Positions 29,708 through 34,036 of a stretch of DNA of 64,000 nt are shown here, one piece after another (the stretch's first letter is position 1; the number at the start of each line of letters is the position of its first letter). A model generated the notes under the pieces. It was not told the DNA's origin, made no database searches, and saw nothing but the letters and a program-made list of their open reading frames with translations. Source of the DNA: Oscillospiraceae bacterium (GTDB lineage Bacteria > Bacillota > Clostridia > Oscillospirales > Oscillospiraceae); the NCBI GenBank assembly GCA_022792945.1, contig JAAWBZ010000077.1:1-64000 (forward strand), written 5' to 3'. The translations under genes were made by a program, and so were the position numbers.

Positions 29708-29814
29708 GACAAAGATAAAAACACAACGTGCCGCGGCACAGAGCCGGTAGGTAGTCCGGCCGCATCCGCCAGGATGTCAGTAACCCTCCCTCCTTGGGTC
29801 GTCCATTCTTTGTC
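29708..29814 (+). promoter_or_regulatory. yjdF (azaaromatic-sensing) riboswitch
   Basis: Matches the yjdF RNA motif as I know it: ACAACGTGCCG, GTAGGT...CCGGCCGCA, GTAACCCTCC and GGGTCGTCC in order. Closing stem P1 is visible: GACAAAGA (29708-29715) pairs with TCTTTGTC (29807-29814). Internal stems GCCGG/CCGGC, CATCC/GGATG and ACCC/GGGT are present. The loop CCTCCTT (29789-29795) is exactly complementary to the SD AAGGAGG (29827-29833) of the downstream yjdF gene, indicating translational control. Confidence 0.88.
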
Positions 29815-29841
29815 CGGAACACATTTAAGGAGGAATTCGTT

Positions 29842-30258
29842 TTGGACAAGGGTATTGGAAATCTGACCGTATTTTTTGAAGATCCCTTCTGGGTGGGCGT
29901 CTGGGAGCGCGTCGAGGACGGACGGCTGATGGTGTGCAAGATCACCTTCGGCGCGGAGCCGCGGGACGCGGAAGTCTATGCCTTTCTCCTGGAAAACTAC
30001 CGTCGTCTCCAGTTCAGTCCGCCTGTGGAAGCTGTTCTGCGCCCCGCCGCCGGCAACCCCAAGCGCCGCCAGCGCGCCGCCCGCAAGGCCACCGGTCAAA
30101 GCGGCGTCGGCACCAAAGCCCAGCAGGCGCTGCAGCTCCAGCGCGAGGCGCAGAAAACCCAGCGCCGCGAGGCCTCCCGCGTGCAGCGGGAGGCGGAAAA
30201 GCAGCGGCAGTTCCAGCAGAAGCAGCAAAAACGAAGAGAAAAACGCCGCGGTCACTGA
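29842..30258 (+). CDS. yjdF: YjdF family protein (DUF2992)
   Basis: 138 aa. N-terminal domain LTVFFEDPFWVGVWERVEDGRL...ITFGAEPRDAEVYAFLLENY is the DUF2992 signature. The C-terminal half is a highly basic Gln/Arg/Lys coiled coil (residues 70-138), likely nucleic-acid binding. The start is TTG (LDKGIGNL) with AAGGAGG 8 bases before it; the ORF track begins inside the riboswitch leader. Controlled by the yjdF riboswitch, which binds azaaromatic compounds; YjdF probably helps tolerate such molecules, but its activity is unknown. Confidence 0.9.
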   Translation: MDKGIGNLTVFFEDPFWVGVWERVEDGRLMVCKITFGAEPRDAEVYAFLLENYRRLQFSPPVEAVLRPAAGNPKRRQRAARKATGQSGVGTKAQQALQLQREAQKTQRREASRVQREAEKQRQFQQKQQKRREKRRGH

Positions 30259-30273
30259 CTGCGGCGTTTTTTT
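30239..30273 (+). terminator. yjdF terminator
   Basis: AAAAACGCCGC / GCGGCGTTTTTTT hairpin spanning the yjdF stop codon. Confidence 0.85.
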
Positions 30274-30432
30274 AACTTTTTATGACCAAAAAAGCTCCGA
30301 TTCGGTTTACCATAACCCCATAATTTTAGTGACATAATCTTGTTTTTTTCCAAAGTCCTTTCAAATATACATTCTCTTATGCGTGCCGTGGCGCTGCGCC
30401 CGCTGCCGGCAAAACGTCTGCTTTGCCGTGAG

Positions 30433-30482
30433 TTATCCACATCATCCACAGACTTTTCCACAACTCCACAATGTTTTCCACA
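30433..30482 (+). repeat. Tandem cluster of five DnaA-box-like 9-mers
   Basis: TTATCCACA (30433, perfect DnaA box), TCATCCACA (30442), TTTTCCACA (30454), AACTCCACA (30462) and TTTTCCACA (30474) lie in one orientation within 50 bp. An AT-rich stretch follows (30485-30525). It is in the gap between the convergent yjdF and gpr genes; no dnaA, dnaN or rpmH is nearby. Candidate DnaA-titration/regulatory cluster, less likely a replication origin. The rest of the 30274-30525 gap is AT-rich with no gene. Confidence 0.65.
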
Positions 30483-30525
30483 GCTGCATTTTCTGTATAT
30501 TGAGTTTACATAATATTTCTGAATC

Positions 30526-31416
30526 TTATTCCACCAAATAGGCGATATCGTCCACACTCAGCCCCTGATGGACGGCCAGGTTGATGCCGTAGGCTACCAG
30601 CTTCGCGATCTGCTCCACCCGGGCATCGATGTCCCGGGGTGTGACGATCATCTGGCGGCCGGCGGTAAGCTCCTCCGTCTCCGGGCCGCCGGGGCGGCCG
30701 AAGTCCTGCAAAAGCGTCTCCACATCCACCACCGTCGGCACCCCCACCGCCACCACCGGGATGCCAAAGCGCGCCTGGTCAAATGCCTCCCGGGCATTGT
30801 GGATGCCGGAGCCGGGGGTGATGCCCGTGTCCGCCAGCTGCACGGTGGTGCAGATCCGCGCGAGGCTGCGGGACGCCAGCGCGTCCACCACGATCATGCA
30901 GTCCGGCCGGGCCTTTTCCACCACGCCGTGGACCACCTCAGCGCTCTCCAGACCTGTGATGCCCAGCACGCCGGGGGCTACGGCGGCGACGGAGCGGTAA
31001 TCCTGAAAAAACGCCGGCGACTGCTCCACCAGGTGCCTGGTAATGAGCAAATGCTCCAGTGCCTTGGGGCCGACAGCGTCCGGCGTAATGGCCGCGTTGC
31101 CCAGGCCCGCCACCAGCACGCACGCCGCATCGTCCAGCCGCAGGAGCCCCCGCAGCTGCCGCCCCAGCGCCTCCGCCGCGCCGCGGAAGCCGTCGCGCTC
31201 CCGGCGGTGGAGGGCCGTCAGCTCCAGCGTCAGGTACGTCCCCACTGGTTTGTGCAGCGCCGCCGCGCCCTGCCCGTCCAGGACCTCCACCTCCGTGATG
31301 TGGACGCCCTGCTCGTCATGCTCCCGGGCGCGGACGCCGGACAGTGCCGTGGCGTCCTGCGCCGATTCCTCCCAAAGCTCCTTCTCCTCCAATGCCAGGT
31401 CCGTTCGCCTGCCCAT
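30526..31416 (-). CDS. gpr: GPR endopeptidase (germination protease)
   Basis: 296 aa. The aspartate-type protease that degrades small acid-soluble spore proteins at germination. Start MGRRTDLALEEKELWEE carries the SASP-like autoprocessing site region RTDLALE. Other family blocks: VLVAGLGNAAITPDAVGPKAL, GVLGITGLESAEVV, VVDALASRSLARICTTVQLADTGITPGSG and GVPTVVDVETLL. The start was placed after GAGGTGAGGAAC; the 380-aa ORF extends through the rpsT promoter region. A GCATA element about 60 bp upstream could be a forespore -35, but its -10 is poor. Confidence 0.94.
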   Translation of the reverse strand: MGRRTDLALEEKELWEESAQDATALSGVRAREHDEQGVHITEVEVLDGQGAAALHKPVGTYLTLELTALHRRERDGFRGAAEALGRQLRGLLRLDDAACVLVAGLGNAAITPDAVGPKALEHLLITRHLVEQSPAFFQDYRSVAAVAPGVLGITGLESAEVVHGVVEKARPDCMIVVDALASRSLARICTTVQLADTGITPGSGIHNAREAFDQARFGIPVVAVGVPTVVDVETLLQDFGRPGGPETEELTAGRQMIVTPRDIDARVEQIAKLVAYGINLAVHQGLSVDDIAYLVE

Positions 31417-31492
31417 GTTCCTCACCTCTCCCCTAGTTTCCGCCGCGTCGTCGTCCGGTATGCGGTTTTTTTCAGAAAAAACAAAAAAAGAC

Positions 31493-31582: not shown

Positions 31583-31849
31583 GTGCCCAACATTAAGTCT
31601 GCCAAGAAGAGAGTCCTGCTCTCCCGCGCTGCCAACGAGAGCAATAAGGCGGCCAAGTCCGTCCTCAAGACTTCTCTGAAGAAGTTCGACGCCGCCGTCG
31701 CTGCCGGTGACGCCGCCCAAACCGATAGCGCTTACAAGGCTGCCGTCAAGACCATTGACCAGGCTGTCAAGAAGGGAATTCTTCACAAGAACACTGCTGC
31801 GCGCAAGAAGAGCAGCATTGCCCGGAAGATGAACTCTCTGGCTTCCTGA
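31583..31849 (+). CDS. rpsT: 30S ribosomal protein S20
   Basis: 88 aa, helical and lysine-rich. Starts (GTG) PNIKSAKKRVLLSRAANESNK and ends GILHKNTAARKKSSIARKMNSL, as in S20. It binds 16S rRNA early in 30S assembly. GGAGGAGGTGTAATC precedes the GTG; the ORF track adds a 5' extension through the gpr region. Divergent from gpr, with its own promoter and terminator. Confidence 0.97.
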   Translation: MPNIKSAKKRVLLSRAANESNKAAKSVLKTSLKKFDAAVAAGDAAQTDSAYKAAVKTIDQAVKKGILHKNTAARKKSSIARKMNSLAS

Positions 31850-31868: not shown

Positions 31869-31905
31869 AACCGTTGCAGAATTCATCTCTGCAACGGTTT
31901 TCTTT
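31869..31905 (+). terminator. rpsT terminator
   Basis: AACCGTTGCAGA ATTCATC TCTGCAACGGTTTTCTTT. Confidence 0.9.
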
Positions 31906-31926
31906 CGGTTTTTACAGGCGGAGCCC

Positions 31927-31954
31927 TTGTCATTTTCGCCCGCTCCGCTATAAT
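31927..31954 (+). promoter_or_regulatory. recG promoter
   Basis: TTGTCA, 16 bp, TATAAT, 33 bp before the ATG. Confidence 0.65.
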
Positions 31955-31987
31955 GAAAGCGAGACCAACGCGGATAGGAGGCGTGCT

Positions 31988-34036
<2,049 letters not shown>

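Follow-up and report, generated by a model that had tools for sequence, protein, structure and literature searches.

A DnaA-box array beside gpr in an Oscillospiraceae genome resembles the off-origin clusters of Bacillus subtilis and carries a second motif at fixed offsets

The stretch of DNA analyzed here – a 64-kb window on contig C29 – comes from a draft MAG of an Oscillospiraceae bacterium (3.27 Mb in 305 contigs, 84% complete, 5.5% contamination). Within the window, a DUF2992 gene (positions 29794-30258, + strand; PF11208, E 4.8e-51) converges on gpr, which encodes the germination protease (30526-31455, - strand; PF03418, E 3e-76; 5′ bound provisional). Beyond gpr lie rpsT, encoding ribosomal protein S20 (31583-31849, +), and recG (31874-34036, +), identified by its RecG_wedge, DEAD, and Helicase_C domains. 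A hairpin and T-run that look terminator-like by eye (30240-30276, +) close the DUF2992 gene. Between the two convergent genes we observed a cluster of DnaA boxes with an A+T-rich stretch to its left, confirming both the convergent gap and the adjoining AT-rich sequence of a preliminary description of this DNA. Both flanking genes end in the gap, at 30258 (+) and 30526 (-), and neither has its promoter at the cluster; since the gap runs 3′ to 3′, there is no obvious promoter for the cluster to control.

Positions 30433-30482 contain four DnaA boxes in tandem, all on the + strand and none with more than one mismatch. Box 1 (30433-30441, TTATCCACA) is a perfect match, box 2 (30442-30450, TCATCCACA) abuts it without a gap, box 3 (30454-30462, TTTTCCACA) stands 3 bp beyond box 2, and box 4 (30474-30482) again reads TTTTCCACA. 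An additional 9-mer on the same strand, AACTCCACA (30462-30470), has three mismatches, shares one base with box 3, and is probably not a box. Thus, from the five tandem 9-mers originally described, four good boxes stand – one of them perfect and all within 50 bp – and the fifth is doubtful. The 64-kb window contains seven one-mismatch boxes versus 4.0 expected, and four of the seven fall inside these 50 bp. Scored against TTATCCACA, boxes 1-3 in their 9+9+3+9 arrangement reach 25/27; the top score among 100 first-order Markov sequences, each as long as the window, was 18.

We counted such clusters across the draft genome. A tight tandem pattern recovered a single other pair, in the dnaA-dnaN gap, and a looser triple pattern identified a further copy 3′ of tsaD (gcp) on the same contig (C29:70532), separated from the gpr copy by 40 kb. 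The window cluster does lie away from dnaA, which is on contig C108, and thus has the makeup of a B. subtilis-type cluster: several DnaA boxes, intergenic, outside oriC. The genome's own dnaA (L037:7300-9450, C108) has an ABC-ATPase gene upstream in place of rpmH, which is on C127, and only weak boxes in the gap between dnaA and dnaN.

The 9+9+3+9 spacing is kept across the family. The triple pattern TTNTNCACATYNTCCACANNNTTNTCCACA occurs in 180 of 400 same-family genomes, in one to three copies apiece, and a reversed-pattern control had no matches in the same 400. The strict pattern was unmatched in the remaining 220 family genomes, with the proviso that strict patterns overlook diverged copies. 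Outside the family, 6 of about 390 genomes had a triple (from a draw of 393 from the class). Among 79 distinct copies, the neighbor was the 3′ end of tsaD in 15, the 5′ end of mnmE in 15, gpr or recG in 7, and spoVB in 5; on the rpmH contig of the source genome (L139), neither mnmE nor a triple was found. On contigs that carry both dnaA and an array, the distance between the two ranges from 13 kb to 1.19 Mb and is mostly within 0.6 Mb. One congener (G005) has longer DnaA-box arrays of at least six boxes at unrelated loci (L118:3190-3330 and L119). At loci L016, L026, L031, and L032, from other genera, the gpr end adjoins a parA-like gene and parS-like TGTTTCACGTGAAACA sites. A relative in the order (G044, L260) has tsaD and gpr as convergent neighbors about 1.2 kb apart, an arrangement that may point to a common origin of the gpr and tsaD clusters.

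Conservation of the boxes at gpr is partial within the genus. The position is kept in four of seven species, three of which have decayed boxes (19-21/27), and the array at gpr is lacking in the other three species. In the decayed arrays the spacing is retained and a second motif, described below, lies at +70 to +74; control windows gave no score as high as 19. Other members of the genus have DnaA boxes elsewhere, so the gpr position is replaceable. Of the copies in the genus, that in the window is preserved best (25/27), and its second motif is intact. Beyond the genus, an intact array lies 98-108 bp past gpr in two other genera, each with its motif at +71 (L176, L216). The gpr of yet another genus is accompanied by a triple scoring 25/27 (L025), and one more genus has arrays about 300-500 bp upstream of rpsT (L193-L203; gpr was not found in the flanks fetched). 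In this family, clusters of this type have a conserved place at gpr/rpsT, a point absent from the preliminary description.

A second motif accompanies the array. In the window it is a 10-mer at 30504-30513 on the - strand (GTTTACATAA on the + strand, TTATGTAAAC on the - strand), starting 71 bp past the start of box 1 and the only such 10-mer in the 64 kb. A partial copy on the other side, AGTGACATAA (30328-30337, +), contains an ACATAAT core kept in three congeners. An unbiased count of 8-mers near the first 47 elements placed TTACATAA/TTATGTAA at the top, in 23 elements versus 0.76 expected. Across 79 elements, GTTNACATAA/TTATGTNAAC has 48 exact sites at -160 to +170 bp versus 0.49 expected from the same loci – an enrichment of about 100-fold. 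The sites concentrate at particular offsets: 18 lie at +33 to +35 in a single orientation, and, in the opposite orientation, 11 lie at +69 to +72 and 8 at +116 to +130. The motif of the tsaD copy on C29 is at +128. Sequences between array and motif diverge between genera while the offsets stay, though relatives share history. An exact motif was missing within -160 to +170 for 37 of the 79 elements, and outside the family the motif accompanies one of eight triples. We rejected the possibility that the 10-mer is a degenerate DnaA box, as its fixed bases include G5 and T6 and its position 7 is variable, where a box requires C6 and A7. We likewise rejected it as a part of oriC, as the dnaA loci lack the composite arrangement, with one site in the 100 kb searched. 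The fixed-offset motif had been missed in the preliminary description and appears to be new.

The 10-mer is similar to one arm of the dif recombination site. The dif site ends in TTATGTAAACT in B. subtilis and in TTATGTTAAAT in Escherichia coli. In Frankia, the XerD arm of dif reads ...TTATGTCAAGT (PMC3025954), which fits TTATGTNAA, and the second motif TTATGTNAAC equals such an arm over the first nine bases. A search of the source genome with a B. subtilis-like dif consensus (TATAATATATATTATGTAAACT, at most three mismatches) gave no match. With a looser dif-like pattern, three relatives (G173, G228, and G276) showed sites close to the point opposite dnaA on the chromosome, and candidates also turned up in the source genome (C209:1804) and in other genomes. 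These terminus sites read TTATGTAAAC-N4/5-TTATGTAAAC, making the second motif the repeated unit of the terminus site; the TTATGTAAAC in the window is identical to the 10-mer of the putative site in its own genome (L235). That site (L235:1475-1545, C209 about 1780-1850) and its counterparts at L241, L243, and L298-L300 are preceded by another conserved stretch (TTTTTGTNAATTAT-like), and their direct-repeat layout is unlike the usual XerC-6-XerD. At the family's clusters only one arm is conserved: no XerC arm stands 6 bp away, and across the 48 sites conservation is confined to the 10-mer. Without a XerC arm, the clusters are not recombination sites. Because the motif matches both the XerD arm and the family's own terminus repeat, XerD is the leading but unproven candidate for the partner at this site; a different protein could recognize this 10-mer.

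Clusters outside oriC in B. subtilis are located at gcp/ydiF, jag/trmE, yqeG/sda, ywlC, ywcI/vpr, and yydA. The elements described here likewise comprise several boxes, are intergenic, and lie far from dnaA, and the family's sister copies share two of the B. subtilis places: the 3′ side of tsaD (gcp), which includes the tsaD copy on C29, and the 5′ side of mnmE (trmE). The window copy resembles the gcp/ydiF cluster in lying between 3′ ends, but no B. subtilis cluster occupies its position at gpr-rpsT-recG. The strict 9+9+3+9 triple and the fixed-offset second motif also distinguish the family, and we found no report of such a motif for B. subtilis. The E. coli elements datA, DARS1, and DARS2 are similarly non-coding DnaA-box clusters that tune initiation from outside oriC, but they need IHF/Fis, act on the nucleotide state of DnaA, and are unrelated in position and build. 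To our knowledge, the B. subtilis protein Rok has no defined fixed-spacing site. As a helper DNA-binding protein at some of the regions bound by DnaA in vivo, Rok provides a precedent for a helper protein (PMC4447404), whereas the family's motif is a sharp 10-mer. The regions to which B. subtilis DnaA binds most strongly in vitro include, with high affinity, one downstream of gcp/ydiF and one between jag and trmE (PMC4447404), and deletion of its six off-origin clusters advances initiation (PMC5295017, PMC13220808).

We consider it probable that the window element is a B. subtilis-type DnaA-box cluster outside the origin that sequesters DnaA and has a two-protein build. The array, its conserved position in relatives, and the sister copies at gcp and trmE fit the titration role suggested in the preliminary description. 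From these sequence comparisons we infer that DnaA binds and is sequestered, which protein is its partner, and that the two bind jointly. Loading of DnaA would be cooperative, covering the 9+9+3+9 array of three boxes together with box 4, and the cluster would retain part of the DnaA pool. Initiation at oriC – beside dnaA, elsewhere on the chromosome – would be restrained until enough DnaA had accumulated. A second protein, for which XerD or a recombinase of the same specificity is the leading candidate, would occupy TTATGTNAAC, placed 71 bp from the array, and its geometry relative to the DnaA complex would be fixed.

It is extremely unlikely that the cluster is instead the chromosomal origin or a second origin. 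In favor of an origin, the boxes are gathered next to an A+T-rich stretch, and at least nine other genera of the family have gpr at a distance of 8-40 kb from dnaA; the earlier remark that an origin next to gpr/rpsT would be unusual therefore does not hold for the family. However, neither dnaA nor rpmH adjoins the cluster in the source genome, where the three are on separate contigs (C108, C127, and C29). GC skew, singled out in the preliminary description along with the location of dnaA as a way to recognize the origin, switches sign at dnaA on C108 and is negative throughout C29 with no change at the cluster, and on this basis we rejected the window cluster as the origin. In the complete genome of a relative (G173), positive skew extends from dnaA to about 1.66 Mb and gives way to negative skew past that point, with switches at dnaA and the terminus but not at the clusters at 270 kb and 2.03 Mb; the skew of G276 is noisy and was taken as weak support only. 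The presence of as many as three copies in one genome also argues against origin function.

We also regard as unlikely a role in which DnaA acts as a transcription factor for a neighboring gene, comparable to its role at sda in B. subtilis. Copies near mnmE and spoVB do stand upstream of genes, and trmE is among the B. subtilis genes that DnaA represses (PMC4447404), but the gpr and tsaD copies are past 3′ ends and the gap in the window is convergent. A decaying or chance remnant, functionless in this species, could account for the congeners with decayed boxes or none at gpr (three each), but the window copy is the best of its genus, scores far above chance, and retains its second motif, which makes this explanation very improbable. 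Another alternative, which we find doubtful, is that the main job of the element is chromosome organization – half-site XerD would mark or unload SMC or act as a tether, DnaA would tie this to replication timing, and titration would be secondary. The identity of the motif with the XerD arm of dif and the family's terminus repeat, the fixed geometry, and the roughly 100-fold enrichment are in keeping with such a role, as is the unloading of SMC by XerD in the terminus region of B. subtilis (cited in PMC12322038). Against it, binding of XerD outside the terminus is putative here, no XerC arm stands beside the motif, a different DNA-binding protein could read the 10-mer, and nearly half of the elements (37/79) are without an exact motif in the interval searched.

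It is possible – and we suggest it tentatively – that the family's off-origin clusters are composite DnaA/XerD control elements, in which DnaA on the fixed three-box array and XerD on the dif half-site, at set helical distances, form one complex. If so, the license to initiate would be tied to the handling of chromosome arms and terminus, including SMC unloading and segregation. As the partner motif is identical to an arm of the terminus site, a physical link between initiation control and Xer would be directly testable. These results suggest that off-origin clusters, known mainly from B. subtilis, keep their tsaD and mnmE neighborhoods in a distant Clostridia family, which argues that such clusters are old in Firmicute replication control.
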